A stretch of 54,062 nucleotides of DNA from positions 1-54,062 of the IMG/VR virus record IMGVR_UViG_3300037193_000656. One strand, given 5' to 3'. Both the position numbers and the translations under genes were made by a program. Positions 2,950-54,062 of the stretch are shown in pieces (positions within the stretch are counted from its first letter, which is position 1; every line of letters begins with the position of its first letter). This stretch comes from a virus. The notes below the pieces were generated by a model. That model was not told the DNA's origin, ran no database searches, and saw only the letters and a program-made list of their open reading frames with translations.

Positions 2950-3588
2950 TTAAAAACTTGTGTCTAATGTTAAGTCGAATCCTTCCCCAGGCTGCCCGAT
3001 CCACTTGTACCCCGCTTCGCTCTCATGCAATTTAATTACCGTTGTCCATTGTGCAATGTTTAACGGGGTAAAAACTCCAATCCTTTCCGGGGCCCTTACT
3101 GAAAATAATATTCGTCCACTCGCTACGCTGTGGGCATCCTTTGTTTCTGCGGTGTTAAACCGGATCCCCGTTACGTGCTTGTTCATGATGAACGGCGGGG
3201 CAAACGCCAATGTCTTGTAGTTGCTGTGCTCTAAGATATGCCGGCAAATTCCTAAAAGCTTTTGCATTTTGGTTTGGGCGATATATCCCCCATCGTTGTC
3301 GTCGGTCGCCTGGGCCTTGCAATGAAAATCTATCCAGTAAATTCCCGTCCCGTCCGCCCCCAACTGGGAATGGTTATCCAAATCCACTTGGGCAACCTGG
3401 ACGTTTATAACGGGCATTTCCGACACGTTAAAAGCTACCATCCTTTCGATAAATACCCGCGGTATATTTACATCCTCATCCGCGGTATAGTCGTACTGGT
3501 TTTGCAATTCCGTGTAAAGGATTTCCGCTATCCGTTCCCGGATTAACTCATAACTCGACGTACTTATGATTTCGTTAATTAGCGGCAT
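2950..3588 (-). CDS. Tail-terminator-like / head-tail joining protein (212 aa)
   Basis: The N-terminus is helical (LIRERIAEILYTELQ) and is followed by beta-rich sequence with a pattern seen in small tail-terminator proteins (lambda gpU class, Mu gp37): a nominal values segment (MPVINVQVAQVD), a central segment (IYWIDFHCKAQA) and a helix (TKMQKLLGICRHILE). It overlaps the upstream 126-aa connector by 14 nt. It probably caps the tail tube where it meets the neck; the assignment rests on fold-like pattern and position. Confidence 0.6.
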   Translation of the reverse strand: MPLINEIISTSSYELIRERIAEILYTELQNQYDYTADEDVNIPRVFIERMVAFNVSEMPVINVQVAQVDLDNHSQLGADGTGIYWIDFHCKAQATDDNDGGYIAQTKMQKLLGICRHILEHSNYKTLAFAPPFIMNKHVTGIRFNTAETKDAHSVASGRILFSVRAPERIGVFTPLNIAQWTTVIKLHESEAGYKWIGQPGEGFDLTLDTSF

Positions 3589-3955
3589 GTTCCTGCAAGA
3601 TTAAACGAATGATCCCCAACACTTCGTCCGGATGCCATTTGATCACCACATACATTTTTTCAATACCTGTGCTATCCGCGCCCCTTACTTTGTGATTCCT
3701 AAAATCAACCAATCCTAGTGCATTTCTGGTTGGGTAATATTGCTCGATTAAATCTAATTCCGATATGGTGCAATGTGCATGGGTTGAATCCAGGGAAGTA
3801 CCATCTAATGGATCCACATTCAAATGAACCCGGAAAAACGTTGCGTTTATTATCGCTTCCTCAGTTGTTGGCGCTGTAAACATTAAAACCGTGGACCAAT
3901 CCGGCCCACTTAATATTCGTCTCGCGTCTGCCCTGGCTCGATTTAATAAACTCAT
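3575..3955 (-). CDS. Head-completion / neck protein candidate (126 aa)
   Basis: A 126-residue protein starting MSLLNRARADARRIL and including an acidic beta-rich middle. Its size and position, between the capsid genes and the tail-terminator-like gene, resemble lambda gpFII-type head completion proteins. The start codon lies directly after an intrinsic terminator, so expression depends on read-through or a hidden promoter. Confidence 0.6.
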   Translation of the reverse strand: MSLLNRARADARRILSGPDWSTVLMFTAPTTEEAIINATFFRVHLNVDPLDGTSLDSTHAHCTISELDLIEQYYPTRNALGLVDFRNHKVRGADSTGIEKMYVVIKWHPDEVLGIIRLILQEHAAN

Positions 3956-3956
3956 A

Positions 3957-3990
3957 AAATAAAATACCCCACACCTGTTGGCATGGGGTA
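3957..3990 (-). terminator. Intrinsic terminator after the capsid genes
   Basis: On the minus strand a stem TACCCCA / TGGGGTA (3984-3990 with 3965-3971), extended by a few inner pairs, is followed by TTTTATTTTATG. The U-rich tract runs into the ATG of the next gene at 3955. Confidence 0.75.
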
Positions 3991-4019
3991 AACCTAAATT
4001 ATTATCAACTGACCCAAAA

Positions 4020-4433
4020 TTACCCCTGTGCTAAAAGCTTAATAAGGTCTTCTTTTTTCGCGTTCGCTGGGTACGTTATCCCCCGATCCTTCAAAGCTTT
4101 TCGTAAATCACCCATTGTTGGGCCTTTATCACTTCCGGATTCTTCCGGCTCTTCCTGTGATTCTGGGGCGGGCTGCACCAATCCGGCTTTCACCGAATCT
4201 TCCAAGGGTGCTTCAACCTTGGTTGGTGATATCGGCCATTCCTCTTTGATTGGGTCCGGCTCAAATTCCGGTTGCTCTTCCTGGTCTACTTCTTCAACTT
4301 GGTTTAAATGCCCTGATTGTATAAGCCTGTCGAATTCACCTTCAGGGAACATGTTTTCGGTGACGGTTGCCCCTGTGTAGAATTTCTTCCTACGGGCAAC
4401 AACGACAAGGCATTTAACTGTAGTTGATCTCAT
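4020..4433 (-). CDS. Acidic head-associated protein with C-terminal HeH/SAP-like motif (137 aa)
   Basis: The N-terminal 30 residues are basic (MRSTTVKCLVVVARRKKFY) and the middle is very acidic and rich in Pro and Glu. The last 30 residues (GDLRKALKDRGITYPANAKK) look like the HeH/SAP helix-extended-helix seen at the end of lambda gpFI-type proteins. It sits directly downstream of the major capsid gene, where lambda-like phages carry FI. A role in DNA packaging or head assembly is likely. Confidence 0.6.
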   Translation of the reverse strand: MRSTTVKCLVVVARRKKFYTGATVTENMFPEGEFDRLIQSGHLNQVEEVDQEEQPEFEPDPIKEEWPISPTKVEAPLEDSVKAGLVQPAPESQEEPEESGSDKGPTMGDLRKALKDRGITYPANAKKEDLIKLLAQG

Positions 4434-4436
4434 TTT

Positions 4437-5495
4437 TTACGCTGCCTTAGCTCTGAATGTATAAATCTGGTCAATGGCTGTTGGAATTGGCATGCCTGCG
4501 CTTTCCACGTGGTATTCCCTGGTACGTCTCTTTTCATCCACGTATTCAGTAAACACATAGTCGCCCGTAATAGGTGGTTGTCCAGGTTCCAACAATTGAG
4601 GAACTGCGGCATAAGCCATTTTGAATTGTGGCCGTTCTGGCATCACCCGCACCAACTTGGGATCCAAGTAAGGTGTCAACGCGTTGCCATTGTCTGGGTC
4701 TTCGTAATAGTCTGTATATGTGAACAGATCCACCGTGAATTCATCCGCTGTCACTGTTCCGATATAGTTACCGCCTTGGGCTGTTCTCTGTGGCGGATTG
4801 ATCGAATCCAATTTCATATTGAAATTATTCTGACGGGCTAAGAATACCGTATTTGCAAACAAGTCGCTGGCCGCTTCCTGGCCCAATATCGCTTGTAAAC
4901 GGTAGGTGCTAACCTTCCCGTTTTGCCGTAACCACCGGCCCGCTGCCGTTAACTGTGCAAACAAATCAACGTTATTCGCCCAGTAGTTGCCCGCGCCTGG
5001 GTCAACAATGGATCCCGCTTTACGCTTGAAATCAATTTGACCCGTGCCATCCTTGAATGTCATCACACCAGTATCCAGGATTTCGCCGCGTTGCTTTTCG
5101 TAACTACGGCGGATCTTGTCAACAAGCATTTGCATTTTCTCAGATGACGACAACACAATTTGGCTAAACATCCGATCGCTAATCGATACCGCACCAAAAA
5201 GGATATCGTAAAAATCCAACGACGTGTGGTCGAAATATTCCCGGTAATATGGCGGAATGAATATTTTTTCAGTCGATTTGCTGAACGTGTTGCGGTTACC
5301 ATCGGTCCCCCGGGTAACATCTACGGCGATTTTTTCGCTTCCACGGACGACCCCAATTGCCAATTCAAGCGTTGGCGAAGGTGGCACTGCAGGGAAGAAA
5401 GATTCCAAAAACAAAACTGGTTTGGTGCTCTCTTTGTAAACGTCAACGACCATTTTTGTATAAAGGCCTAATGCGTCCGAGGTTGCAATATTCAT
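4437..5495 (-). CDS. Major capsid protein, lambda gpE family (352 aa)
   Basis: Length and composition fit the lambda gpE-type HK97-fold capsid protein: an N-terminal region with a hydrophobic proline-rich segment (PVLFLESFFPAVPP), the conserved patch with TEKIFIPPYYREYFD, a spine helix around SEKMQMLVDKIRRSYEKQRG, and a C-terminal beta domain. It follows the decoration protein and the ClpP-like protease, the order of genes in lambda. It forms the icosahedral head shell. Confidence 0.88.
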   Translation of the reverse strand: MNIATSDALGLYTKMVVDVYKESTKPVLFLESFFPAVPPSPTLELAIGVVRGSEKIAVDVTRGTDGNRNTFSKSTEKIFIPPYYREYFDHTSLDFYDILFGAVSISDRMFSQIVLSSSEKMQMLVDKIRRSYEKQRGEILDTGVMTFKDGTGQIDFKRKAGSIVDPGAGNYWANNVDLFAQLTAAGRWLRQNGKVSTYRLQAILGQEAASDLFANTVFLARQNNFNMKLDSINPPQRTAQGGNYIGTVTADEFTVDLFTYTDYYEDPDNGNALTPYLDPKLVRVMPERPQFKMAYAAVPQLLEPGQPPITGDYVFTEYVDEKRRTREYHVESAGMPIPTAIDQIYTFRAKAA

Positions 5496-6027: not shown

Positions 6028-7089
6028 TTACGCGGATATTTTTAATCCAGCGTGTGCGCGGGCGCTTTTTTCAAACGCTTCGAGTTTTTTTTGCTCTTCC
6101 GTTTTTTCGGGATCAACCTTGTCGGTTTCAACTTTGCCGGCTGAATCCTTTTTGATCGTTTCCAACTTGGTGTTACTGATCGCTTTCAATTGGAATTCGG
6201 CCATCTGTTTTGCTGACAACGGCTTACCTTCTTCGATTGCTTTTTTACATGCCTCAGGATCCAAATGGTTGAAAACCATAATAGATTCCACGCGGTCTTT
6301 TTCCTGCGATATCCCGGCCGCAAGACCTTCCGCATGGCCTTCCGCCTTTACTTGTGCGTATAGGGCGGGATATTTTGTTTTCAATTCATTTAAGTCCATA
6401 TAATCATTTGGTTTTGTCTCTGCTGCTAATTTTGGTTTCGCCTGTATGGTCTGGGCCGCCAACCTGAATTGTTCAATTGTCTTGCAATCCTTAAAGGCTT
6501 CCGCTGTTGTTTTGATTGCTGCAATTCTGCTCGGTGTCACCTTTATTATGTCGTTAACCAATCCCAGTTTTTTCATATCCTGGGCCGTTAATAAAACTTC
6601 TTCGCGACTTTCCAGGGAAAAAATATCCCTCAACTTCAAATTTCTTTCGGTGAATTGTGGTAACGCTTCCAATACTGCCACGTCTACGCGCGCGCGGAAA
6701 GCTTTTTCCAAATCCTTATTGGTTTTTACCAAAATCTTTTCCTCAATGCTTCCTTTAAATGCCGTGGACTGCTCGTACCATTCCCCGTATGACGCCCGAT
6801 GTAAAACAAATTGTGCCGTATCTATCGCGGAAACTCTTTCCACTGGAACATAAGCCAAAAGAAACAAGGCCATTGAATGGGCCATGCCTTCAACAATAAG
6901 TGGGGCCGCTTCTAATTCCTGGGCCTTGCGGATCAATGACATTCCATAACCCGGATTTCCGCCAACGCAATTAATTAAGATTTCCAATTCAGCTTCCGGG
7001 TCGTCTTCCTGAGCTTCTTTGATTTGCTCATAAAAATATTCCACCTGATATTCCCAAATCTGCCCGTATAAGAGAATTGCTTTTGCCAT
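6028..7089 (-). CDS. ClpP-like head maturation protease with scaffold-like tail (353 aa)
   Basis: Residues 1-110 match the ClpP/S49 phage prohead protease fold: ILINCVGGNPGYGMSL is the glycine-rich loop, GMAHSMALFL holds the candidate nucleophile Ser72 and FVLHRAS the candidate His97. The C-terminal 120 residues are charged and helical like a scaffold. An internal ATG at 6399 (residue 231, MDLNELKTKYP) could yield a separate 123-aa scaffold as lambda C/Nu3 does; that is inference. It lies directly downstream of the portal gene. Confidence 0.82.
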   Translation of the reverse strand: MAKAILLYGQIWEYQVEYFYEQIKEAQEDDPEAELEILINCVGGNPGYGMSLIRKAQELEAAPLIVEGMAHSMALFLLAYVPVERVSAIDTAQFVLHRASYGEWYEQSTAFKGSIEEKILVKTNKDLEKAFRARVDVAVLEALPQFTERNLKLRDIFSLESREEVLLTAQDMKKLGLVNDIIKVTPSRIAAIKTTAEAFKDCKTIEQFRLAAQTIQAKPKLAAETKPNDYMDLNELKTKYPALYAQVKAEGHAEGLAAGISQEKDRVESIMVFNHLDPEACKKAIEEGKPLSAKQMAEFQLKAISNTKLETIKKDSAGKVETDKVDPEKTEEQKKLEAFEKSARAHAGLKISA

Positions 7090-9339: not shown

Positions 9340-9887
9340 GCGGTTTTGATGTTGTCAATTTTTGCCCCGGATATATTGGCCGTTGCTGGCTGTGCTGGGA
9401 TCCCTGCCCCGGGCGTTGGTGGAGATGGTGCCCCGGTTCCAGCTGTCGGGTGCATGTGCGCATTAAACGCGCTTACCAAATCATTGTGGGATTGTTTGAG
9501 ACTATTAAACGCCGTTTCAAGTTCCTGGAATTTCACTAGGTTTTTTGCATCCCCGCCAATCTCCCACGATGTCCCGGTCATTTGGGTTACCCCTGTGTTT
9601 TTTAAATGGATTGTTGCTTTTACTTCCCCGTTCGCGTCGGTTGAAAATATCCGATTTTCCCCCACGTCGGCAATAGCGTTTTTATTGATATACCCAATTA
9701 TAACCGCTTCCCCTTTCGTTCCCGTCAACGTATAAACCGCCACCATGTCTTTAATCGGGTTTGAGTCCACACCATAGGGCCCGATCTGTTCCGCGGTCCT
9801 GGTATCTTTTAAACCGTACCTAAGAAACTTTATTACCCGCCGGGTTAAACTGTCGATTTCTGTGGATATAATTTTGGTAAGCTGCAT
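9336..9887 (-). CDS. Baseplate spike / assembly protein V, Mu gp45-like (183 aa)
   Basis: The middle has an OB-fold-like start (GPYGVDSNPIKDMVAVY) followed by GEAVIIGYIN and NRIFSTDANGEVKATIHLK, typical of Mu gp45/P2 gpV baseplate spikes. The C-terminus has a helix and a Gly/Pro/Ala-rich His-containing segment (AHMHPTAGTGAPSPPTPG). It follows the gp44-like gene directly, as in Mu. It should form the membrane-piercing tip under the tail tube. Confidence 0.75.
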   Translation of the reverse strand: MQLTKIISTEIDSLTRRVIKFLRYGLKDTRTAEQIGPYGVDSNPIKDMVAVYTLTGTKGEAVIIGYINKNAIADVGENRIFSTDANGEVKATIHLKNTGVTQMTGTSWEIGGDAKNLVKFQELETAFNSLKQSHNDLVSAFNAHMHPTAGTGAPSPPTPGAGIPAQPATANISGAKIDNIKTA

Positions 9888-10954
9888 TAATGCAAGTTAA
9901 TTCCCTGGTAAAGATACTTTGGAGTTTTGCCGTTATAAACTTCCGGAAGACAACACGTTAACGTGGCCACTGTCTTTTGTTCGTCCCCATCCAATTGCAC
10001 TTCCTCTATAAACCAATCACTTTTCCGGAACAAATAGGCACTTGGATTTAGGACGCTAATTATCTGGTTGGGCTTAATCACTTTCCCGTCAATCTCCCAT
10101 CGATCGGTAACAATCTTTAATTTTAACCCCTTTAGTTCTGCGGCCAATGCCATCCGTGCCACCTTTTCGGTGTCAACATCGCTTCCAGAATCTTGAATGA
10201 TCACCGTAGGACGATATACAAACGGAACGTAGGGGTTTCTTATTTCCGCTTCCCCTGCATTACCCCCGTCCTTCCCTGCCTGTTTAATCACGTGTATATG
10301 CGAGTGCATCCCCTGGCCGTCATAACTTAAATCCATCTTATCGAAAGGGATGGTGTTTTTTTTCTCTGAATTGAATTCCAAAATAGGCTTTTGTCCCGTT
10401 GCTGCCCGGGTAAAAACTACGTTGCCACTGGAATTATGGGATATGATTATATTTTTTTGGGTAGCCAATTCGGTTAAATAATCCTTGATTGACTGCCCAG
10501 GTTCCGCGGTCGTCTTTTCGTAGGGCTCATCCATGGCCGCCGACACCGACCCGCCAACAACCATTCCGATCCCAAAAGGTGGCAATAACTTTTGGGCTAT
10601 TTCTCTAAGCGTTAAACCGTCGTACTGCAAGGGGTATAAACTGGGTGGTATCTTGCAATCTTCCAGGATCCCAGGTAAAGAGTAGCCCGCCATCTGGGCC
10701 ATTTCAGGCACTTTAGAATCTGAAAAGCTTTCATTGATAATATTGCCGGTCAATATTACTTCCCCGTTGTGCTTTAAATACGCTATGTGGTAATGTCCGA
10801 CGCAATACAATTCCACATGTTCCTTGTTCTTTGGGTTAAAGTAACCATTGAAAGCGAAAGAACTGGCCATGCTATCGAATCGCAAATTGATCCGGTATTG
10901 ATTGAAGAAATCAACACGCCGGTTTCTAATTCTATCGTTTATATAGAGTTCCAA
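9887..10954 (-). CDS. Baseplate hub protein, Mu gp44 / gpD-like (355 aa)
   Basis: Begins with a TTG codon immediately after the stop of the upstream gene. The sequence includes a beta-rich N-terminal half (YCVGHYHIAYLKHNGEVILTG), PYEKTTAEPGQSIKDYLTEL followed by NIIISHNSSGNVVFTR, and a C-terminal WFIEEVQLDGDEQKTVATLT, matching baseplate hub proteins of the Mu gp44 (late control D) class. It links tail tube and spike. Confidence 0.75.
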   Translation of the reverse strand: MELYINDRIRNRRVDFFNQYRINLRFDSMASSFAFNGYFNPKNKEHVELYCVGHYHIAYLKHNGEVILTGNIINESFSDSKVPEMAQMAGYSLPGILEDCKIPPSLYPLQYDGLTLREIAQKLLPPFGIGMVVGGSVSAAMDEPYEKTTAEPGQSIKDYLTELATQKNIIISHNSSGNVVFTRAATGQKPILEFNSEKKNTIPFDKMDLSYDGQGMHSHIHVIKQAGKDGGNAGEAEIRNPYVPFVYRPTVIIQDSGSDVDTEKVARMALAAELKGLKLKIVTDRWEIDGKVIKPNQIISVLNPSAYLFRKSDWFIEEVQLDGDEQKTVATLTCCLPEVYNGKTPKYLYQGINLH

Positions 10955-19523: not shown

Positions 19524-21041
19524 TTAGTTTAAGGTTCCAAAATTAAAACCCGCTTCCGCATCCGTTGATGATATCCGCGCAACCCCGCTTCGCTTATAGC
19601 GGAAAAATGTTTCCAGTCTGTCTGAATTAACCGTGCTGATGTCGACCTGAATGGAATTTTTCATGAATGCTTTATCAACAATCAAGGCCCGTGCTTCCAA
19701 ATCATCCGCATACGCATCATTGATTTGTTTCCACTGCTTAGGTTTTATAACACCATCAACAACCACCGTGGCATCATCTGGGGCGATTACTTTGTCAACC
19801 ACGTGTATTTGTTCGTTCAGGTAATATCCGAAACGCACGTTCCAATCAACGTTCAAGTTTCGTGGGTAACGAAACTGGGGTGGCTCTTCACCTACCGGGT
19901 GGTAAGTGGTTACAAAGTCTTGCACTTGGTACCGGTCACCCATTAGCATTACCGTTGAACAGCCTTTTTTTACCATTGCATCCCGGTTGGTATAGTCTGC
20001 CATGGATCCAATAATGGTTGGTGTCGGCATGTCTGGATAAAGCTTTCCGCCCACATCCAAATGCGGGGTATTTTCACAGATGTTGGCAAACAATAGACAC
20101 ATATTTGCGGCCGCCTCGAATTGCAAACCGTCGCTTAATGGCGCTGGGGCAATTGCTATGGTCATATCGTTTAACCTGAGGTCCGTAATAGTGCTGGGAT
20201 CATCTGCCGTTGATCCTGTGTGTGCGATAAACGGTTTCATTACAATTGGATTGTAACGCCCTGTTGGATTGTCCGGGTGGGCAATTCCGTTGAATGCTTC
20301 CAGTGCATCCATAACGGATTCTACAGTGCCATACCCGTTAATAACCTGGGTATTCCAGGTATCGCCAAATAAATCCAACGCCGCTTGTATCGATGGGGTA
20401 CCGCTGCCAGCCTGTGTAGCTGCAACAACGTATGTTATACCCAAATCATCTTCGTTTGTGTCAACCTCCACGGTAACATCATTGGCAGTTAACCCAGCCC
20501 ACTTGGTTGTCAATGTCGCTTCGTAATCATCGGAGGTTCCAATAACTGGGGATCCCAAAACCGCATTTACCGCGTCTTGAATCTTCGCCGTTATTTCTGC
20601 AGTGCTGTCCCCCTCAACGATATTAATGTCATAAGCCACCCCATCCACTGATCCACGTCCCGCAATGATAATGGTATGAATACCGTTACCCGTGGCAACC
20701 CCGGAAGGTTCAATGGTCAATATTTTTTGCGTAGCCCCAACCGCTTTCGCCTGGGCCATTACAATTGTAGGGATTCCGCCCACGCCGTCACCTGAAATCG
20801 GCCTGAGTATCCGCATTATCATGTGGATAGGCGACCCGTAACCGTATTCTTCCCCTGCCTGCCTTGCGTTAAGTACTTCCAATGGGTTTGTTTCCAAACC
20901 TATTTGGTTGGCTTCGTTGGCTTCGGCTAGTATTACAATACGCTGTGGTAAATTTGGTGATGACTGTCTGAAATTCCCTTTCTTGATCTTGTATCCCACT
21001 ACTCGGGACACTCGGTTTAATGCAACTGCATCGGATGCCAT
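19524..21041 (-). CDS. Tail sheath protein, Mu gpL-like (505 aa)
   Basis: Starts with the conserved sheath N-terminus (MASDAVALNRVSRVVGYKI). The middle has an inserted Ig-like beta domain and the C-terminal half (TITDLRLNDMTIAIAPAP, MPTPTIIGSMADYTNRDA, YQVQDFVTTYHPVGEEPP) matches Mu-like sheath proteins. It identifies the phage as contractile-tailed. It has its own promoter-like sequence at 21073-21102 and follows a strong terminator. Confidence 0.9.
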   Translation of the reverse strand: MASDAVALNRVSRVVGYKIKKGNFRQSSPNLPQRIVILAEANEANQIGLETNPLEVLNARQAGEEYGYGSPIHMIMRILRPISGDGVGGIPTIVMAQAKAVGATQKILTIEPSGVATGNGIHTIIIAGRGSVDGVAYDINIVEGDSTAEITAKIQDAVNAVLGSPVIGTSDDYEATLTTKWAGLTANDVTVEVDTNEDDLGITYVVAATQAGSGTPSIQAALDLFGDTWNTQVINGYGTVESVMDALEAFNGIAHPDNPTGRYNPIVMKPFIAHTGSTADDPSTITDLRLNDMTIAIAPAPLSDGLQFEAAANMCLLFANICENTPHLDVGGKLYPDMPTPTIIGSMADYTNRDAMVKKGCSTVMLMGDRYQVQDFVTTYHPVGEEPPQFRYPRNLNVDWNVRFGYYLNEQIHVVDKVIAPDDATVVVDGVIKPKQWKQINDAYADDLEARALIVDKAFMKNSIQVDISTVNSDRLETFFRYKRSGVARISSTDAEAGFNFGTLN

Positions 21042-21072: not shown

Positions 21073-21102
21073 CAAACCTAAAATATTTTCGAATTAATGC
21101 AA
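21073..21102 (-). promoter_or_regulatory. Bacteroidota-type promoter before the tail sheath operon
   Basis: On the minus strand, TTG (21100-21102) is followed by 19 nt and TAGGTTTG (21073-21080), an exact match to the Bacteroidota -7 pattern TAnnTTTG with usual spacing. It lies downstream of a terminator and 32 nt upstream of the sheath ATG, so it should start the tail operon. Confidence 0.7.
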
Positions 21103-21114
21103 GCGAAGTAGCGC

Positions 21115-21150
21115 AATAAAAAAAGCCCGGTTGACGAATCCCGAGCTTTT
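21115..21150 (-). terminator. Intrinsic terminator after the glycan cassette
   Basis: On the minus strand AAAAGCTCGG (21141-21150), a 10-nt loop and CCGGGCTTTT (21121-21130) pair over ten positions with one wobble, and a T-run follows. It separates the glycosyltransferase cassette from the tail operon. Confidence 0.8.
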
Positions 21151-21194
21151 CGACCCTGTTTAAGTTAAAATGCGACTGGCTAAAACGTTAATGG

Positions 21195-21965
21195 CTACAA
21201 TATAGTACCTAAGTTGAAATAATCATTGACCACTTTAATTTTTCTTCCCTGGAAATATTTAACCCCGGGATTTCCATTGATGTCATAACCGTTCCATTCC
21301 TGTGTGAATTCGGCTACCTGGGCTGGTCTCCATGGGCTTGCTGCGTTTTTAAACTTGCCTTCAATGTCTTTTCTGATCATCGAATAATGATGCAACATGA
21401 TTTCAAATTCCTTGAATAGGTAATATTTTATCCACGTGTTCATCTGTACCGACGGGTCCACCAATAACGGAAATCTCGGGATTCTCTCTATTCTGGTTTC
21501 AGGGTACAGCTTACAAATGAATGGCATAAAGTACGTTTCTATTGGGGTCAATTGCCATGTTGGATCCTTGTAATATGTGTACATCGCGGTAAATGTTGCG
21601 TCCCAATCCATAACCTCGCACAACCTTTTAGCAAATTCAAATTCGTAATCCAGGTAAAAATGATCACACGCGGCCATAAGAAAGTGCGTGGCGCCATACT
21701 CCCTGGCTACCTGAATCATTTTATTGTGCTTGTCCCGCTCCTTTTGTTTCGCGTTCCCAATGTTTGGTTCATACTGAACAATTATTATATTATCACCTCT
21801 CAACCTATGGACTTTCGCAAGGTCACTGGCTTTTATCCTGTTACCGTTATTGGATTTATGTTGCCAACAGATTACAAAAAAATCCACTTGTGACTCTATT
21901 GCCTTCATCGACGCTTCCAGTAATTCTGCCCCGTCGAATACCGTGTAACATGCTGCCAATTTCAT
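21195..21965 (-). CDS. Glycosyltransferase, GT-A/GT2-like (256 aa)
   Basis: The N-terminus LAACYTVFDGAELLEASMKA and later GNAKQKERDKHNKMIQVARE plus a DxD-like AACDHFYLDYEF are typical of GT2-type transferases. No membrane segment is seen, so it would act in the cytoplasm on activated sugar and an acceptor glycan. It is the last gene of the cassette, overlaps the 42-aa membrane protein by 4 nt, and is followed by a terminator. Confidence 0.72.
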   Translation of the reverse strand: MKLAACYTVFDGAELLEASMKAIESQVDFFVICWQHKSNNGNRIKASDLAKVHRLRGDNIIIVQYEPNIGNAKQKERDKHNKMIQVAREYGATHFLMAACDHFYLDYEFEFAKRLCEVMDWDATFTAMYTYYKDPTWQLTPIETYFMPFICKLYPETRIERIPRFPLLVDPSVQMNTWIKYYLFKEFEIMLHHYSMIRKDIEGKFKNAASPWRPAQVAEFTQEWNGYDINGNPGVKYFQGRKIKVVNDYFNLGTIL

Positions 21966-22090
21966 AAGTAAAGTAAAACTAATACGGTTAATAGGATGGC
22001 AATTATTATACTGATCATCGCGTTAAGGCATCCAAAATCTGACATTTCCTTGGTGTCCTGTAAATCATAGTCATCGTAGCTGTTGTTCAT
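21962..22090 (-). CDS. Small single-pass membrane protein of the glycan cassette (42 aa)
   Basis: A polar N-terminus (MNNSYDDYDLQDTKE) is followed by a clear membrane segment (MISIIIAILLTVLVLLYL). Codon coupling is tight at both sides: it overlaps the Asn-synthetase-like gene by 20 nt and the transferase by 4 nt. It might anchor or recruit cassette enzymes at the inner membrane (inference). Confidence 0.6.
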   Translation of the reverse strand: MNNSYDDYDLQDTKEMSDFGCLNAMISIIIAILLTVLVLLYL

Positions 22091-23471
22091 ATTTGCGTTT
22101 GTGGTTTAAAGCGTAGGTGGCCCATTGGAAATTGGTGCAATAAGGATTGGAAAACCCCCGCTTTTTACCTTCAATCACTGCTTTATCCAAACCGCTTATG
22201 TCCTTTAATATCCGTTTATTTTCTCTATATGCCTCAGGTAACGATAAAGCGAAATCTACAAAGTCATTATCTAACAACGGATAACGAGTTTCTATTGCAA
22301 ATTGTCCGGCCATCCGATCTTCTACCACCAACACGGATTTTAAAAACTTCCAATCGTATTGTTTGTGGGTAATCTCAGGGTAATGAATGTACGGCACAAA
22401 GTCATCGGTAACTAAGGTACGTTTGATGACTTCCCCTATCGGGCGCGCGTACCTGTGCGTATATCCGTTGAAAACCTCATCACCCCCGGCCCCGGAATAA
22501 AGGATGGTTACGTGCCTTCCCGCCAATTCTGTTAAAGCGTAATTGGTGTAACAACTGCCGGCCTTCAAATCGTCCAGCGCTTCTATGGCTGGATCCCGGA
22601 AAGTCCGGAACAATTTTTCATTACAAATCATTGTTAAGTGAATGCCGGATGAATTGCGTTTGATATTCTCTATCTCTGAATAGTTGTTATCCTGGTAATC
22701 CATACTAAAACAGTATTCAGGATTTAGCTTTTTGGATAAGATGCCACTATCAATTCCACCGGAAAGGAACACGCCATCCGCCAATGATTTATGTTTATTA
22801 CGATCCAATGACCTGGAAAGCAGAAATGATAAACGCTCCTTTGCGTCCGAATATGACACCTGTATCGTTCGGGGGATCCGAAATGGTAAGCATTCCACCC
22901 GCGTTACACCCTCGTAAATCGTGTGGGGATTCATTATCCCCAGTGAGTAAACCCAATCTTCTGCCCCTTCCTCGGAGATCTCCAAAGGCAAAACGGCTGC
23001 CAATGCTTTAACCTCGCTGGCAAAATAAATCTTGTTTGTCGATGCATCATAGTAGCGGTACAGCTGCTTTATACCGTACCGATCGGTAAATGCATAATGC
23101 TTTTTTTCTTTTGCGTCGTAAGCAAACACCGCGAAAAATCCATTTAACACCAACAACTTTTCGGGATCACAACCAAACTTTTCTATGAACTTTGCTAATA
23201 GTTCTGTGTCGCAATTGGTTTCCATCCGGATTTTAAAGATCTGGGCTAGTTCCTGATAATTGCTTATAAATCCATTCATCCATACAACCCACTTTCCCGC
23301 CATATACGGTTGGCTTGGGGCCATTGGATCGGTTATTGGAAGATGGGTAAACCATACGTGAATATTGTCAACCTCAGCCCCCACGCCGTTATATCCACGT
23401 CGGCCCTGGGCACGTCCCATTTTTTCAGCCTCTTCCCGGCTTCCGTTTATTACGGCTGCGATCCCGCACAT
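22071..23471 (-). CDS. Asparagine-synthetase-like amidotransferase (466 aa)
   Basis: Class II glutamine amidotransferase domain first: MCGIAAVINGS puts the catalytic Cys at position 2; RRGYNG and WMNGFISNYQEL follow. The synthetase domain has the PP-loop FLSGGIDSGILS (about residues 237-248) and LYSGAGGDEVFNGY. At 466 residues it is shorter than typical AsnB (about 550-630). In O-antigen clusters such enzymes amidate sugar acids (WbpS-type), which suits its neighbours; free asparagine production is the alternative. Confidence 0.85.
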   Translation of the reverse strand: MCGIAAVINGSREEAEKMGRAQGRRGYNGVGAEVDNIHVWFTHLPITDPMAPSQPYMAGKWVVWMNGFISNYQELAQIFKIRMETNCDTELLAKFIEKFGCDPEKLLVLNGFFAVFAYDAKEKKHYAFTDRYGIKQLYRYYDASTNKIYFASEVKALAAVLPLEISEEGAEDWVYSLGIMNPHTIYEGVTRVECLPFRIPRTIQVSYSDAKERLSFLLSRSLDRNKHKSLADGVFLSGGIDSGILSKKLNPEYCFSMDYQDNNYSEIENIKRNSSGIHLTMICNEKLFRTFRDPAIEALDDLKAGSCYTNYALTELAGRHVTILYSGAGGDEVFNGYTHRYARPIGEVIKRTLVTDDFVPYIHYPEITHKQYDWKFLKSVLVVEDRMAGQFAIETRYPLLDNDFVDFALSLPEAYRENKRILKDISGLDKAVIEGKKRGFSNPYCTNFQWATYALNHKRKYEQQLR

Positions 23472-23472
23472 A

Positions 23473-24030
23473 TTACTTTTTATTTTCGCCCATGTCGCGC
23501 GCGGGCGATCCTACATATTTCCGGTTGGGTTCTAAGTGGGTCTTTTTTGTTATCGTCGTGTTCATCCCCACCATGATATCCGACGGAATAACCAACCGTT
23601 GGTGGGCTACCGCTCCCAATCCAAAGTTTGTACGGTCGCCAACCTCAGTAAACCCACCAATACACACGTTACAACTAAGCGTTACACCGTCCTTTATCAC
23701 TGCATCATGGCCAACATGGGCGTTTTTCAAAAGAATAGTATTGTTTTTTATGATCGTCGGGCGCTCGGTACCTGCATCAATAGTGATTTGTTTTGTAAAT
23801 CGGTTCCCGCTTCCGATGATCACAAGCCCTGGTTTGTTAAAGAATCCTACCTTTTCCGCATTGTCACCGATGATACAATAGGGCCCAACGTGATTATTGT
23901 CACCGATCTGGACCCCTGCACGGATTATTACCCCCTCTTTGATGGTGTTTCCTGTCCCCAGGATGGCCCCGGCTTCTATTATTGCTGATGGGTGAACGTC
24001 GTTTTCCCCGTATTGATAGATGTTATCCAT
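23473..24030 (-). CDS. LpxA-like acyltransferase, left-handed beta-helix (185 aa)
   Basis: Hexapeptide repeats (IEAGAILGTGNTIKEGVIIR, AGVQIGDNNHVGPYCIIGDN) run through the protein. KNAHVGHDAVIKDG carries the His of LpxA-type acyltransferases. It is shorter than LpxA (about 260 aa) and lacks its C-terminal helical domain, so sugar N- or O-acylation, perhaps of a nucleotide sugar, is the safer call. It overlaps the upstream transferase by 8 nt. Confidence 0.78.
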   Translation of the reverse strand: MDNIYQYGENDVHPSAIIEAGAILGTGNTIKEGVIIRAGVQIGDNNHVGPYCIIGDNAEKVGFFNKPGLVIIGSGNRFTKQITIDAGTERPTIIKNNTILLKNAHVGHDAVIKDGVTLSCNVCIGGFTEVGDRTNFGLGAVAHQRLVIPSDIMVGMNTTITKKTHLEPNRKYVGSPARDMGENKK

Positions 24031-24748
24031 AAATTAAGGTTGCTAAATGATTTGGTAGATTGTCGAATAAAAGTTTTTTGCCGTCTATGTACTGGGAATT
24101 ATCCCACTGCGTAAACTTGGTCATGTTCACCGATGATTTTATATCCAGGCCAAAAACGTTTTCTCTCTTCATGTACAATTCCATTCGACTGCATCGCGTC
24201 CGCGCCATCTGTTTGTCAAAGGCTGTATCTAATATTTTGTCGTAACCTGGGGTCCACAAATTCCACATCAAAAGGTTTAATACCCTGGCTGATATCAGTC
24301 GCCCCATACCCAACGGAAGGCCTTTATTAAACGATTTAGTATATCCACCCCAGTAAAGGCCCTTCTTTGAAACTGTATCGAAAAAATAGCAGTCCATCAA
24401 ATACGTGTAATCGATACCCTGTTTCATGGCTGCATAGTACTTTTCCATCAATGACACTCCTATGATGTCATCGCTTCCCATCGCTAAACAGTAATTGGGA
24501 CTTAACCGACTGGCCAACCTTAGTGCTGCGTTCATCTTGGTTCCTAAAGGCTGGTTGGGTACCTCCACGTAAAAGAAGTTCGAATAAGCTGCAACCATGT
24601 TCCGGCTTTTGTAACTCTCACTTCCAGCCACGCAACAAACTATTTCGACCCTTCCCCGGAATGCATCTTGCAACATCTTAACACCTTCGGCAAACATTTT
24701 AAAAATCTCAGGCCTTTGCCAAATGCCCGTTACTATCGCTAACCTCAT
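24023..24748 (-). CDS. Glycosyltransferase, GT-A-like (241 aa)
   Basis: Starts MRLAIVTGIWQRPEIFKMFA and has LGTKMNAALRLASRLSPNY followed by LAMGSDDIIG, a typical GT-A nucleotide-sugar site with an acidic pair. No membrane segment. It overlaps the first transferase by 41 nt and the acyltransferase by 8 nt, so it is part of the same operon. Confidence 0.72.
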   Translation of the reverse strand: MRLAIVTGIWQRPEIFKMFAEGVKMLQDAFRGRVEIVCCVAGSESYKSRNMVAAYSNFFYVEVPNQPLGTKMNAALRLASRLSPNYCLAMGSDDIIGVSLMEKYYAAMKQGIDYTYLMDCYFFDTVSKKGLYWGGYTKSFNKGLPLGMGRLISARVLNLLMWNLWTPGYDKILDTAFDKQMARTRCSRMELYMKRENVFGLDIKSSVNMTKFTQWDNSQYIDGKKLLFDNLPNHLATLIYG

Positions 24749-25418
24749 CGAAGTATGTAGAATAAAAATTGAAACTTTCTGAATCCAATGTAGCTTTTAG
24801 AAATTTAAAATCCGCGTCATCTGTACCGCGCGGGGGATTGTACCGATCAAACCTATCCCGGTGGGACATTCCACCCGTTAATCCTACCCCGTGTTTTATT
24901 CCGATGCTTATATGCCGCTCGGGTTTGAAGGTTACCCCGTTTAATCTGTTCTTTACCCACAAGGCAAGGTCAGTAAATGGGTCGTCATCCCGCGGCCATG
25001 ATATCTTTAGGTTCGGTTTTATTAACGTATTCATGGCACTTGCCCGGGTAAAATGGGTCATGGTGTAGTATTTCCGCAATTGAATGTGGTAATATATCGT
25101 ATAATTCGTCCCAAAAATCTGAGGTTTGCCAGCCTTCACCCACTCTTTTATCATGATTTCCAGGTAATCTGGCAGATAGGCATCATCGTTTTCCACCAAA
25201 GCAACCACATCGATACTTTCATTGTGCTGAATCAGTTTATTAAAATACTCGTAGCCTTCCCTGTATCGCTGCGTAATGTCCCTGCTTTCTGATCGTGGGG
25301 GATAATTTACCACCTTAATCCACTTCGGTTGAACCGTCTGGGCCCTGATCATACGCAAACAATTTTCCATAAATCGGGGACGATCGCCGCGGTCGGGTAC
25401 TATTATGCCAATGTTCAT
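24708..25418 (-). CDS. Glycosyltransferase, GT2-like (236 aa)
   Basis: N-terminus MNIGIIVPDRGDRPRFMENC followed by VALVENDDAYLPDYLEIMIK, a DxD-like motif of GT-A enzymes. The C-terminal half (GIKHGVGLTGGMSHRDRFDR) is likely the acceptor side. First gene of the glycan cassette, starting only 36 nt after the large terminase stop, just after the repeated AT-rich element at 25430-25451. Confidence 0.72.
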   Translation of the reverse strand: MNIGIIVPDRGDRPRFMENCLRMIRAQTVQPKWIKVVNYPPRSESRDITQRYREGYEYFNKLIQHNESIDVVALVENDDAYLPDYLEIMIKEWVKAGKPQIFGTNYTIYYHIQLRKYYTMTHFTRASAMNTLIKPNLKISWPRDDDPFTDLALWVKNRLNGVTFKPERHISIGIKHGVGLTGGMSHRDRFDRYNPPRGTDDADFKFLKATLDSESFNFYSTYFDEVSDSNGHLAKA

Positions 25419-25454: not shown

Positions 25455-27500
25455 TTACTTCTTTCCAAGAAACAATGAAACAAAATCCCCCCAACTGGGC
25501 TTGACCCCTTTAAATTCTTTCATCGACTTGCACACAAGATTTACCACTATGTCTTTTAATACCATGTTGTAAATACGAACATCCCAAAAGTGATTCTGTG
25601 ACTTTGTCGACCGCTTTACCCACCGGGTTCCTATACCTTCGTCGTTTTTTTTCTCCGTTATCTTGTGTTCAGCTTCGTAATGACTGAAAAAATTGTTGAA
25701 TCCATACAACCCCTGACCCGGTTGGGGGTAGTTTAGGTACCCTGGTGGCTGCTTTTCCTCGCTGAAATCGTCCCATTTTAGCCGCATATAGTCCGCTAAA
25801 TCGTCTTTTATGGCGTTAACCTCCACCAAATACAGGTTGGAACGTTCCCGCGCGGGCTTAAAATTAGGTAAATCTGCCCCTAATTTCATGGGTTTTGCCT
25901 CGTCTTTTCCCTTCAAAGCCACCCGAAAAACGTTTTTCATGCTGTCAATGAAGCTATATGCATAGGTGGTAAACCGTCCCGAGTCCACACCAGCCATTAA
26001 AATCCCCATGTTCCGGCCTGTATCTGTGGGGAATTTACGGTCCAAGATCTTTTTAAGCTCAGGCCATACGCTTAACGGGCGACCCCATTCGTATGTCCAC
26101 TTTTCCCGGGCCTCATCTCTACGCCGCTTTTGATTTTCCAATGGAATGAACGTTCCGATACTTCCATGCTCTACCGAATAGGACGAACCCGATTCACTCC
26201 ACGCGACCACCTCCCAGTCAACCCGGGCGTCTGTCTCTAATCCGTTCAAGTCTGCAGCACATGTGAGTAAAACAATACTTCCATTGCCGTCACTTTGGGA
26301 AAACCTTTCCGGAACCGTCCCGATTGGGTACGTCCGGATGTTATAACGCTGTAAATCGTTGGCCTTTATGTCTTCCGCTTCGGGTTTCCAGGGTAGTCCC
26401 TGCCCTAAATTCATGAAGGTTTTCTTCAAACTTTCCTTACCTGGGCCATCTTTGGGGTAGGCTTCCTTGTATTCTCGCACGTAATGGGCCCAATCATACA
26501 TCCCAGCGGGTGCGTAAAGGCTTGAAATATGGTAAGAATAGTACCCAATTTGGCTTGGTTCTACCGTTGGGATCCATTCGCCGGCCAACATTAGTTCCCC
26601 TTTCTGGCTATCATCGAAGAAATTACCGCATTCCTGGCATATATACCCCACTGAATCTGGTATCAATCGCCCCCTTTCGTCATCCTTCCAATACATTCCA
26701 GCCTTTTCCCGGCCTTCCGTCCCCTTGATCTCAACCGTCCAGTGCAATGCGATCATGGCGCCACAACACGGGCATGGTATATTGAAGTAACGCTGATCAC
26801 CTTTTAGAAAAACTGAATTGATGTTGGAGCTATCTTCTAACTCAGGGGAAGACGAATACATGATTTTCATTTTGTCCCCAAATGCCGCGCATCGCTGTTC
26901 AATTAGTTTCTCGTTACTACCCGCTTGCTCTGAACTTGCCTTAGCTGCGTCGAAATCGTCTACAAATGCATAACGAATTGATCTTTGCCTCATCAATTTG
27001 TAACTACCCGCGGCCCCAGCGATCAAAAAACCCCCCGGAAACTCTTTGCTTTTACGTGTGTCACCGCTTCGGGCGTTCTTTTTCTTAATGATATTGGGCC
27101 TTATTAGATGCCGGATCCCGCACGATTCTATCATTTGGTCTATCCGTAGGTCCATTGCTTCTTCCGAAAGTTCGGGCGCGCCACTCAAAAACATGATTGG
27201 GCCCGGACATTCTGAGATAATCCACCCGATTCCGTTCTCTATTACCCCCGCGCTGAACCCTATTTGCGCCCCTTTCATTACCGCTATCCGTCTGGCTGGG
27301 TGGGCTGGATCCAAACAATCCACGATTTCTTTAAGGTATGGCGTTCGATTGTAGGTGTATGGACCTGGGAATGGGGAAACCTCCGAAGACATTACCCGCC
27401 GTCCTTCCGCCCATGCTGATGGCTTAACGTCGGAAATTAATTGCCGGCAAGCTTCGAATAGCTCTAAAATCTGCCGCTCGTAGTTGATGTTAAGCTGCAT
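25455..27500 (-). CDS. terL: Terminase large subunit, GpA family (681 aa)
   Basis: I chose ATG at 27500. The ATPase domain has a Walker-A-like MKGAQIGFSAG and Walker B RYAFVDDFDAA; a zinc-ribbon-like CPCCGA and CQECG follow; the nuclease domain begins with MAGVDSGRFTTYAYSF. Length and motifs match the lambda gpA-type terminase. It cuts and packages DNA with the small subunit and portal. It overlaps the small subunit gene by 11 nt. Confidence 0.88.
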   Translation of the reverse strand: MQLNINYERQILELFEACRQLISDVKPSAWAEGRRVMSSEVSPFPGPYTYNRTPYLKEIVDCLDPAHPARRIAVMKGAQIGFSAGVIENGIGWIISECPGPIMFLSGAPELSEEAMDLRIDQMIESCGIRHLIRPNIIKKKNARSGDTRKSKEFPGGFLIAGAAGSYKLMRQRSIRYAFVDDFDAAKASSEQAGSNEKLIEQRCAAFGDKMKIMYSSSPELEDSSNINSVFLKGDQRYFNIPCPCCGAMIALHWTVEIKGTEGREKAGMYWKDDERGRLIPDSVGYICQECGNFFDDSQKGELMLAGEWIPTVEPSQIGYYSYHISSLYAPAGMYDWAHYVREYKEAYPKDGPGKESLKKTFMNLGQGLPWKPEAEDIKANDLQRYNIRTYPIGTVPERFSQSDGNGSIVLLTCAADLNGLETDARVDWEVVAWSESGSSYSVEHGSIGTFIPLENQKRRRDEAREKWTYEWGRPLSVWPELKKILDRKFPTDTGRNMGILMAGVDSGRFTTYAYSFIDSMKNVFRVALKGKDEAKPMKLGADLPNFKPARERSNLYLVEVNAIKDDLADYMRLKWDDFSEEKQPPGYLNYPQPGQGLYGFNNFFSHYEAEHKITEKKNDEGIGTRWVKRSTKSQNHFWDVRIYNMVLKDIVVNLVCKSMKEFKGVKPSWGDFVSLFLGKK

Positions 27501-28071
27501 TCTTTGTTCCGGCAAACTCTGAAACAATCTTTTGCACGTTCTTTTTGCTGTTATCGACGGCTCGATTCACTGATTCGTTCACCATTTTGGTAATCAAAGC
27601 CCGGAATTCCGTTACCTGATTGCCGTTTAACCGTGCTTTCTTCCCGATTTCAGATAGTAAACTGTCTATTCCTTGCTTTATTTCCATGGATAATTCCCGG
27701 AATTGCTGGGCTACTACCATCTTTGCCACGTCTGTTGGAATCAAAACGCCGTGCATTTTCTGTAATCTGGCATCTGTCAACGCCATTTCCCTACGCTTTG
27801 CCTCAATCGCTACGGTCTTTTGTTGCTTTTCCAGGTCGTAAAGATCTTCGCGGTCGTCGCGTTTTGGTTTTTCTGTGGGCTCGGTTACTTTTTCAGGATC
27901 TTTTTTCTTCCTGCCCGCCCGGGATTCCATAAATATTTTATTCACAGAATTTGTGTCATCAATCAAACCCGCTTCAGAAACAACCACCTTGTTTCGCTTG
28001 ATGTACACCGCCAATTCCCTGGTAACTATTCCGCATAGTTTCGCAAACTCCCTTTTCGTGTGAATCGACAT
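27490..28071 (-). CDS. Terminase small subunit-like DNA-binding protein (193 aa)
   Basis: Residues 1-30 have a helix-turn-helix-like start (KREFAKLCGIVTRELAVYIK) like Nu1. A charged linker, then a long helical region with EIKQGIDSLLSEIGKK follow. It directly precedes the large terminase and overlaps it, as in nearly all tailed phages. It would recognise the packaging site. Confidence 0.72.
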   Translation of the reverse strand: MSIHTKREFAKLCGIVTRELAVYIKRNKVVVSEAGLIDDTNSVNKIFMESRAGRKKKDPEKVTEPTEKPKRDDREDLYDLEKQQKTVAIEAKRREMALTDARLQKMHGVLIPTDVAKMVVAQQFRELSMEIKQGIDSLLSEIGKKARLNGNQVTEFRALITKMVNESVNRAVDNSKKNVQKIVSEFAGTKNAA

Positions 28072-50531: not shown

Positions 50532-51000
50532 GGTTTTTGGTTTTGTTTTTCTTCTTATGGTACCGTGCTTTTAATCTGGTGCGATTGTATTCGCGGTATT
50601 CCTCGGTTTTAAAATAGCCATTATCCTTTCTCCATTGTGCCCTACGCTCGTAATAATTCCCCTCGTATTCTGGATATGCCCTACCTTTTTGCCTCTTTGT
50701 TTTTCCCTTCACAGGGATCCGCCGACTTCTTTTTTTGGTTATGATTGGATCCTCTATCCCATCCGCTCGATCTAATAACCTTTCAAAAGTGTGTTCAATT
50801 AAAGTTAATTTTTTGTTCCGGTAATCCTGTCGGTGGGCTTCTAAAATTTTTTCCTGGTTGGCATAGTAATACGCCGAATCAATACCATTTTCTTTTTTAT
50901 ACGCCCGGTTGTGGCTCTTTACTTTTTCTCGATACTCGATATCGTCCGCATAGCGTTGGCGGGCCCGTGCCCGCCTGTCAACCTTATGCTTGTATGGCAT
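50461..51000 (-). CDS. Very basic hypothetical protein (179 aa)
   Basis: Rich in Arg, Lys, Tyr and Glu throughout (MPYKHKVDRRARARQRYADD; YERRAQWRKDNGYFKTEEYR), with a strongly basic end. It follows the beta-helix spike gene by overlap of one base. Nucleic acid binding is likely from charge; no family. Confidence 0.5.
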   Translation of the reverse strand: MPYKHKVDRRARARQRYADDIEYREKVKSHNRAYKKENGIDSAYYYANQEKILEAHRQDYRNKKLTLIEHTFERLLDRADGIEDPIITKKRSRRIPVKGKTKRQKGRAYPEYEGNYYERRAQWRKDNGYFKTEEYREYNRTRLKARYHKKKNKTKNHGQKEQSSPRSPGSRNLPVKLHH

Positions 51001-52232
51001 TAAACCGTCGGTATGATCGTATTATTAGCCTTGATCGTGCTATCGTTTACCGCTGAATTTACAATGCCCATATATTTGATCAACGGGGCATTATTGCGCT
51101 GGGTGATTCTATTACCTGCTATATACAAGTTGTCCACACCGGCGCCACCAATAAGGAATAGTCCACCCCATGTCGGGCAAGTCGCTGGGCTACTAAATTC
51201 ATTCCGTTCAACCCTCCAATTTTTCCACTTCTTATTCACTTGGAAGTTCGCAAAGATCATTTGCGTGTTTAGTATTTTGTTATCGTAAAATTCGAGGTTA
51301 TCCAAAAGCGTTTCCAGCGCATAGGTATCGCCCGCGGTATCAAACAAATTATTCCTAACAATCACTTTTCCCTGATCTTGCCAGCCTACCGCCAAACTAA
51401 CTTGATTTCCAAAAACGCAATCGTAAATTTCAACGGTCCCCAATATTTTCGTGTCGTGGATTTCGAACCCTATGTTCTTACTCTTCCCGCCTGCCCAGAT
51501 TGAACTATGGTTCATTGCAGTTTTAATGTGATGGAATTTAACATTTGCCAGCGTCGACCCTGGATATAATGCTTTGAATCCATACCCGCGCTGTGAAGAA
51601 TCGCTACTAACTTCACCAAAGGCAATTTCGTAATTGGTTAAACCCGAAAACGCCAAGTCCCCACTTGCCCAGGATTCCACCGCCCCGGATGTGTTGTGTA
51701 ACTTGAAATTTTTAATAGATCCGTTCTTACACCCGCGCGCCCATATACCTGTAAATTTTGTGTCCTGGCCTTTGATGCCATCAACGTGGACGCCATCGCA
51801 GTTGGTCAACATAACAAGCCCAGAAACAATATTACCCCCCAACAACGTCCCGTTTTTTATTGTCTGATTCAATCCGCCGTCAATCTCAAACATCGCGTTT
51901 TGATCATTGAACGCACCCGCGGTTTTCCCTTTGATAGTGGATCCGCCTAAATCAACACTAACCCCTTTAGGGATTACTATATTCGGAAGCTCATACGTCC
52001 CCCGCGCAAACACTACCGTCTTTCCGGCTGCCGCCGTTCTTATCGCTTCTTCAAATCCTGATGAAATACCACCTATTGGAATTTCCGGTTCCGGCTGTGG
52101 TTCGGGTTCCGGTTCCGGCTGCGGTACCGCTGGCAACACCAATTCGTCAATTACCAAACTTACCGCAAAGGCTGCATCCACTAAGGTTGCTTTATGGCGA
52201 CCATCCGCCAATTTTTCGATTTGTAGTTTCAT
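51000..52232 (-). CDS. Right-handed beta-helix tailspike-like protein (410 aa)
   Basis: Short N-terminal domain (MKLQIEKLADGRHKATLVDA), a PEPEPEPQPEPE linker at about 38-50 and then pectate-lyase-type coils from about residue 55 (GVHVDGIKGQDTKFTGIWAR, KNGSIKNFKLHNTSG, KVIVRNNLFDTAGDTY). This fold is typical of glycan-cleaving or glycan-binding tail spikes. The linker is coded by short tandem DNA repeats and may vary in length. Confidence 0.75.
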   Translation of the reverse strand: MKLQIEKLADGRHKATLVDAAFAVSLVIDELVLPAVPQPEPEPEPQPEPEIPIGGISSGFEEAIRTAAAGKTVVFARGTYELPNIVIPKGVSVDLGGSTIKGKTAGAFNDQNAMFEIDGGLNQTIKNGTLLGGNIVSGLVMLTNCDGVHVDGIKGQDTKFTGIWARGCKNGSIKNFKLHNTSGAVESWASGDLAFSGLTNYEIAFGEVSSDSSQRGYGFKALYPGSTLANVKFHHIKTAMNHSSIWAGGKSKNIGFEIHDTKILGTVEIYDCVFGNQVSLAVGWQDQGKVIVRNNLFDTAGDTYALETLLDNLEFYDNKILNTQMIFANFQVNKKWKNWRVERNEFSSPATCPTWGGLFLIGGAGVDNLYIAGNRITQRNNAPLIKYMGIVNSAVNDSTIKANNTIIPTV

Positions 52233-53400: not shown

Positions 53401-54062
53401 TTATGCTGCAATTTTATCGAAATAGTCATCAAAGTAATCATCATCATCCTTTTTACGCTTGGAAACCCACATTAAACCTGGAAGCACAAAAATAAGGTTG
53501 GCGAATGGGAACAGGTAATAAAAACACTCCTTACCCATTTCGTCCAATGCTGCACCGTCATAATGTTGTGCATCTAAAAAGGTTCTTGTGTCGGTATCCC
53601 TCCAAGTGGACCCGTCAACCTTTGTTGAATAGGAGGGATTATCTGTCAGGTAATTGTCGCCGATTTCTTCCTGGGCTGTTCTGACTAATGGATATTCCGT
53701 TACATCATAAGAAAACCCACCCGCGTCGGTGATCCTAAATACAAGTAGCCTAACTTCATCAACCGTCCACCCCGCCGTCGTCATTGCATCCAGCAATGCA
53801 TTAAACATCCCGTAAAAATTAGTTTTGTATTGAGTGCCTGCCCCAGTTTCGATGGCATCGGTTTCGCCCTGCATCCATACAAATCCTTTTATCTTGGGAT
53901 CTTTTCTAAGGACGTGTTTTAACTCTGAAAGACCGTTTAATATTTGGATCCGGTATTTATCATAAAGCTCGTTGTGGCTTACGTTCCAATCATTATATGT
54001 AACTGTTGAAATCAACGGCGTACCCCCTACACCTGATTTCATTATGTAGCAATTCTTTTTCG
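53401..54062 (-). CDS. Exported SGNH / sialate O-acetylesterase-like protein, C-terminal part
   Basis: Last part of the 666-residue protein that begins at 1480 and passes through the contig break. It holds the esterase block KGFVWMQGETDAIE (residues about 504-517) and the catalytic FLDAQH, putting Asp610 and His613 in the DxxH motif. Near the end FPFANLIFVLPGLMW is a hydrophobic stretch followed by basic residues and Asp-rich sequence (VSKRKKDDDDYF), so the C-terminus may anchor in a membrane. The stop is at 53401. Confidence 0.82.
   Translation of the reverse strand, partial: KKNCYIMKSGVGGTPLISTVTYNDWNVSHNELYDKYRIQILNGLSELKHVLRKDPKIKGFVWMQGETDAIETGAGTQYKTNFYGMFNALLDAMTTAGWTVDEVRLLVFRITDAGGFSYDVTEYPLVRTAQEEIGDNYLTDNPSYSTKVDGSTWRDTDTRTFLDAQHYDGAALDEMGKECFYYLFPFANLIFVLPGLMWVSKRKKDDDDYFDDYFDKIAA
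53922..54062. repeat. Terminal direct repeat, right copy
   Basis: Identical to 1-141. See the left copy. Confidence 0.95.

Follow-up and report, generated by a model that had tools for sequence, protein, structure and literature searches.

Glycosylation of the particles of tailed phages is documented mainly in mycobacteriophages. Passages of two papers (PMC12363180, PMC11256854, citing Freeman 2023) describe mycobacteriophages whose own glycosyltransferases (GTs; Che8 gp110, Corndog gp38, Myrna) glycosylate the capsid and the tail tube, capsid and tail proteins being the proposed acceptors. Here, we analyzed the virus record IMGVR_UViG_3300037193_000656 of IMG/VR (54,062 bases; the window, i.e. 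the whole stretch of DNA that was analyzed), in which six close-packed open reading frames (ORFs) on the minus strand at 21195–25418 encode three GT-A glycosyltransferases (GT1, GT2 and GT3), an LpxA-like acyltransferase, an AsnB-like amidotransferase and a 42-amino acid (aa) membrane peptide, with the large terminase gene (TerL, 25455–27527) and the tail sheath gene (19524–21041) as flanks. Judged from its sequence, this cassette is probably a glycan island carried by the phage to glycosylate its own particles. It shares with the mycobacteriophage system the presence of phage-encoded GTs in a tailed phage, whereas here the acceptor is only a candidate and the GTs are part of a multi-enzyme island of variable content within the structural block, with amidation, acylation or O-methylation and with head-module domains on several GTs. 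At the sequence level, tblastn searches of 50,697 phage records with GT1, GT2 and GT3 as queries gave no match in a mycobacteriophage.

Other described systems share individual traits with the cassette. Wzx/Wzy clusters for O-antigen or capsule combine serial GTs with an AsnB-like amidotransferase and a left-handed beta-helix (LbH) acyltransferase or O-methyltransferases, and show modular gene swapping around a conserved anchor gene, but here no initiating transferase, flippase- or polymerase-like multi-pass protein or epimerase-type sugar-nucleotide gene was found. Gtr serotype conversion (GtrA/GtrB/Gtr) is likewise a phage-encoded glycan modification, and the fold comparison of GT2 gives GtrB as one of its weaker matches; in contrast, the present system lacks a large GT with multiple transmembrane (TM) segments, GtrA in 8 genomes and an integrase in the window. 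Hypermodification of DNA (Pyle 2024, cited in a passage of PMC12619734) also involves viral GT-A enzymes, whereas a thymidylate synthase-family base-hydroxylating enzyme was not detected here. Cellulophaga phages phiSM and phi3:1 and Flavobacterium phage FCV-1 have homologous TerL, portal, major capsid protein (MCP), sheath and tube as well as the same gene with a head-module domain after the capsid gene, but in these phages portal and head genes, rather than sheath, come after TerL, and the stretches read contain no glycan island. The same passage of PMC12619734 lists GTs as core genes of other uncultured phages and leaves their function open. Our literature search, which covered few subscription papers, turned up neither an account of this island nor a report of head-module domains on GTs.

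A variable island within the structural genes

A swappable set of sugar-attaching enzymes is encoded within the virion-building genes of this phage and of some hundred relatives that are uncultured. Alignment-based queries were required to find these relatives, single-sequence IMG/VR scans with AsnB or TerL having returned nothing; because the searches were motif-seeded and thus biased to conserved sequences, the counts are lower bounds, and near-duplicates are included in the locus counts. The TerL alignment search gave 80 related viral loci, many with the same cassette proteins between TerL and sheath, and the GT1 alignment search gave 79 loci, of which 76, all uncultured, were new. In these 76 loci, GT1 lies beside terminase or sheath genes (57 loci), where baseplate and head genes meet (7) or elsewhere (12, including contigs of 374 kb and 482 kb). 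GT1 is present in nine of the ten genomes read, the exception (G005) being a 29-kb fragment, and in unrelated lineages it is again found by packaging or head genes, next to the terminase in L180 and the head protease in L185. Two genomes (G003 and G004) have no GT1 between terminase and sheath and carry it between baseplate and head genes instead. Absence of the cassette from lineages in which TerL adjoins the sheath gene was considered and rejected, as in two genomes of this kind the island is located at the junction between baseplate and head. On a 482-kb phage contig (L182, 5384–10654), GT1 follows genes for a RimK-like glutamate ligase and a ribonucleotide reductase, with a GT3 homolog nearby.

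The orientation of the island also varies. Among loci with both flanks read, GT1 is on the strand opposite to TerL and sheath in 28 and on the same strand in 11, and the TerL tree implies at least four changes of orientation. An active phase-variable inversion was rejected on the basis that there is no strong flanking inverted repeat and no resolvase or invertase (no resolvase in 8 genomes); repeated evolutionary inversion is the preferred explanation. An imperfect 30-nt inverted repeat (77%) does bracket the cassette in the window, with its arms in the sheath (20930–20959) and terminase (25533–25562) genes, and probably arose by chance. An earlier note on this DNA, made from the sequence without database searches, had placed the cassette as an insertion between terminase and tail sheath; this holds for the window and many relatives but is too narrow for a variable island that is also found inverted or at the baseplate/head junction.

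The middle genes of the island are highly variable, being swapped, moved and inverted while GT1 stays. The set GT1, GT2, AsnB, LbH and GT3 occurs in 11 loci, and the gene order of the window in two, L118 and L148. Pooled Pfam matches of the islands comprise GTs of several families and sugar-type O-methyltransferases including TylF, and acyl- and amidotransferases are encoded as well. In the pair L142 and L145, TerL and sheath are 76% identical, but GT2 only 28% and the LpxA-like protein 36%, and the gene order differs; measured by sequence identity, the islands change faster than their flanks. Compared with L118 and L148, third codon positions of the cassette differ about twice as often as first and second positions, as in TerL and sheath, and this pattern therefore indicates that the cassette genes are under purifying selection and maintained. 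A search of 84,980 prokaryote genomes detected relatives of GT1 in just five, and in four of these the relative lies on a phage contig. A stray or recent insertion is ruled out by the conservation, by the codon-position pattern and by a GC content close to that of the flanks. The cassette is the local version of a long-standing variable island, and the degraded, unexpressed cassette that the earlier note had raised against its own reading does not match the intact, selected genes of the relatives.

A head-module domain on island glycosyltransferases

In relatives, the gene after GT1 often encodes an N-terminal domain of ~50 residues that also forms the N-terminus of the post-capsid gene, which directly follows the major capsid gene. 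In the window, the post-capsid gene (4020–4433, minus strand) combines this domain with a C-terminal HeH/LEM domain (HeH, E 6.5e-9) and lies next to the MCP gene (4437–5495, minus strand; PHROG 29, E 3e-27), whose product is a candidate acceptor. A hidden Markov model (HMM) of the domain, trained only on 12 post-capsid domains and not on that of the window, was run against 14,251 distinct ORFs from 187 loci and retrieved 23 post-capsid ORFs, 17 island GTs and nothing else; it recovers the post-capsid gene of the window (E 5.5e-5). Post-capsid and GT versions of the domain align by hhalign with a probability of 99.6 (E 1.2e-23), and one pair is 50% identical over 46 aa in a direct BLASTP comparison. 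The domain had no significant match among solved structures. The transferases to which it is fused are of several different kinds, a pattern that would be expected if it served for docking. Because the domain is otherwise found only beside the capsid gene, a variable sugar chain is most likely put on the phage's own particle.

These observations make it tempting to speculate, as a more specific and tentative proposal, that a large group of uncultured Bacteroidota myophages might build a serotype-like variable glycan coat on the head by means of a capsid-docked glycan factory, in which the GTs recognize the assembling head via the post-capsid domain and enzyme swaps behind a constant first transferase diversify the particle surface, much as O-antigen loci do for bacteria. 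The post-capsid protein is a candidate docking partner or a candidate acceptor. Mu gp35, with which it agrees in gene position and in having a HeH domain and in nothing else, is at most a candidate homolog. Mu gp35 itself appears as a probable structural, connector-related protein in a passage of PMC11915804. One island, in L165, contains two GT1-type genes (3235–4650 and 9846–10484), the longer of which (471 aa) has the head-module domain.

Candidate targets of the island enzymes

The earlier note had left host surface, virion and DNA side by side as targets. Of these, the virion is favored because of the constant place of the island in the structural block together with the head-module domain on many island GTs, and the other two are weakened. 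In our model, the cassette would be expressed late, and GT1, the product of the near-constant gene, would place the first sugar on a phage protein in the cytosol. Extension of the glycan would fall to GT2 and GT3, the AsnB-like protein would amidate a sugar carboxylate and the LpxA-like enzyme would acylate a sugar, with sugar nucleotides supplied by the host. In many relatives, the head-module domain would dock the extending enzyme on the assembling head, and swaps of the middle genes would give different phages different particle glycans. Such a variable glycan could plausibly act against host molecules that bind the particle, alter adsorption or contribute to stability.

Several observations weigh against glycosylation of the virion. 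A search for the acceptor by virion protein length identified none, with no telling length change among homologs of MCP, tube, sheath and gpD. Cytosolic enzymes could also act on a lipid-linked host glycan before its export. GT2 of the window and its closest homologs (L118 and L148) lack the head-module domain, and for this phage docking is therefore inferred from relatives. Finally, gp18 of phiSM, a distant homolog of the domain protein, is annotated as hypothetical while its neighbors were detected by tandem mass spectrometry (MS/MS).

The second of these points leads to the alternative that the enzymes alter a lipid-linked O-antigen or capsule glycan of the host on the cytosolic face and that the host flippase and polymerase export the product, so that superinfection is blocked or receptors are changed. 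Surface-polysaccharide loci typically encode AsnB-like amidotransferases, LpxA/NeuD-like acyltransferases and O-methyltransferases, and small TM peptides are a recurring feature of a few islands. However, the machinery of such pathways was not found in the genomes tested: the initiating polyprenyl-phosphate transferase (PF02397) is missing from all 8 (the control was positive in 9), as is GtrA (PF04138), and hydropathy detected no flippase-like polytopic membrane protein in 17 islands and no protein with more than six TM segments in 10 genomes, the largest being the tape measure. An integrase (PF00589) was found neither in the window nor in six of seven relatives, G007 having one, which makes lysogenic conversion by this phage unlikely. 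The location of the island within the structural block and the near absence of GT1 from bacterial genomes also argue against modification of the host surface, which would moreover leave the head-module domain on GTs unexplained, and we consider this alternative unlikely. A SASA-type carbohydrate esterase (53401–54042; PF03629, E 3e-6) is encoded near a beta-helix protein (51000–52232; a weak Pfam match) in the window and suggests that the phage meets acylated glycans, which is in line with a host-surface target. The pair is probably a receptor-deacetylating tail-fiber module, and the phage may thus both meet and make acylated glycans.

It is quite unlikely that the enzymes modify a host protein or small molecule, for instance in counter-defense, and that the structural block merely offers a tolerated site for cargo. 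The gene content of the island is very variable, as would suit cargo, and in the cultured relative FCV-1 the slot after TerL holds an unrelated pair of ParB-like and PAPS-reductase genes (L003, 5352–7021). Yet islands that have moved or inverted still keep GT1, and only island GTs and post-capsid genes share the head-module domain.

A function in DNA hypermodification, with GTs glycosylating modified bases and the AsnB-like and acyl enzymes decorating the sugar so that DNA is shielded from restriction, is very unlikely. It would fit with the reported viral GTs that hypermodify DNA mentioned above and with the cassette adjoining the terminase in the window and in L180. However, a thymidylate synthase-family dCMP/dUMP hydroxymethylase was absent from all seven genomes tested (control positive), a C5-cytosine methylase was not found in the window, and fusion to a head-module domain would not be expected. 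A search for Tet/JBP dioxygenases gave no match, its control likewise matching nowhere. In G007 (the contig of L032), the genome with the only integrase seen, matches to a C5-methyltransferase fall in two pieces in different frames (6275–7070), possibly a broken gene.

If the island indeed glycosylates the virion, a broad group of Bacteroidota phages would have particle glycosylation as a core trait that diversifies, carried out by multi-step pathways including amidation, acylation and methylation, raising the question of what role particle glycans have in environments without antibodies. The islands would also supply a set of soluble GTs, and the fusions to the head-module domain offer a direct way to approach both the acceptor and the question of how protein glycosylation is aimed at the particle during assembly.

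Cassette proteins and genome context

The window has a 141-bp direct repeat at its termini and is therefore probably a complete genome. Both flanks of the cassette, like the cassette itself, are on the minus strand, TerL matching GpA in Pfam (E 3e-54) and PHROG 15 (E 6e-139) and the sheath matching PHROG 165 (E 3e-81). Exactly 36 nt separate the TerL stop from the GT1 ATG, and consecutive cassette genes overlap by 41, 8, −1, 20 and 4 nt in transcription order. An intrinsic terminator at approximately 21117–21151 (minus strand; 11-bp stem, U7 tail, −16.1 kcal/mol) closes the cassette; with a loop of 10 nt, it escaped the automatic scan. A Bacteroidota-type promoter, TTG-N19-TAGGTTTG (21073–21102, minus strand), precedes the sheath ATG by 32 nt; it is a consensus match only, the pattern having nine matches in the window against about five expected. 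The earlier note's description of six tightly overlapping genes 36 nt after the terminase, a strong terminator and a separate promoter for the tail operon is thus borne out in its coordinates and spacing, the promoter at the level of consensus.

The protein families that it named were also recovered, and family and structure comparisons place the proteins within glycan biology, with acidic DxD-like motifs in the alignments of all three GTs and with the AsnB-like and hexapeptide assignments being unambiguous. Taken as a set, the enzymes are of kinds that typically build a short glycan with decorations. GT1 (24708–25418, minus strand, 236 aa) has a weak Pfam match by itself, but 14 of 16 homologs match Glycos_transf_2 (PF00535); the motifs PxRxDR and E-x-DDxY are invariant in the 16-sequence alignment, and the profile reaches solved family-2 glycosyltransferases (PDB 3bcv, E 5.5e-5). 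GT2 and GT3 gave no Pfam GT match, and their assignment to GT-A comes from confidently predicted folds. For GT2 (24023–24748, minus strand, 241 aa, GSDD motif), an L010 homolog that is 41% identical was modeled by AlphaFold2 with a pLDDT of 91, and its Foldseek matches are GT-A enzymes; for GT3 (21195–21965, minus strand, 256 aa), the second most frequent island gene, a model based on ten homologs reached a pLDDT of 93.3 and matched SpsA, SunS and WrtF.

The LpxA-like LbH acyltransferase (23473–24030, minus strand, 185 aa) matches hexapeptide/LpxA families in Pfam (E 1.8e-13), LpxA in NCBIfam (E 4e-28) and PDB 8e62 (E 5e-33), and both histidines of its AHxGHD motif (H105 and H108) are invariant among homologs; its score is far under the NCBIfam LpxA equivalog cut-off, and it is therefore not LpxA of lipid A itself. 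The AsnB-like glutamine amidotransferase (22071–23471, minus strand, 466 aa) matches AsnB (E 6.5e-27) and GATase_7 (E 1e-20) in Pfam as well as PDB 1ct9, and in the alignment the catalytic Cys2 and the SGGxDS (ATP-pyrophosphatase) loop are both intact. Its score is under the NCBIfam cut-off for asparagine synthase, so true asparagine synthesis is not implied. The 42-aa peptide (21962–22090, minus strand) has a single hydrophobic segment by hydropathy and is not conserved in L118, the nearest relative with identical gene order. In L010 (3605–5599), AsnB-like and LpxA-like enzymes are fused in one 664-aa protein, which suggests consecutive steps on one sugar.

Nine relatives share a small ORF (55–86 aa) that was not found in the window; it lies between the portal and head protease genes, on the strand opposite to them (for example L110 8173–8358, L113 4292–4477, L116 2731–2940 and L103 5111–5290). 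Finally, in the Prevotella megaphage Lak-B4 (L004, 7935–9986), the GT3 family forms the N-terminal domain of a 683-aa protein, with ~26% identity and one TAG read as Q.

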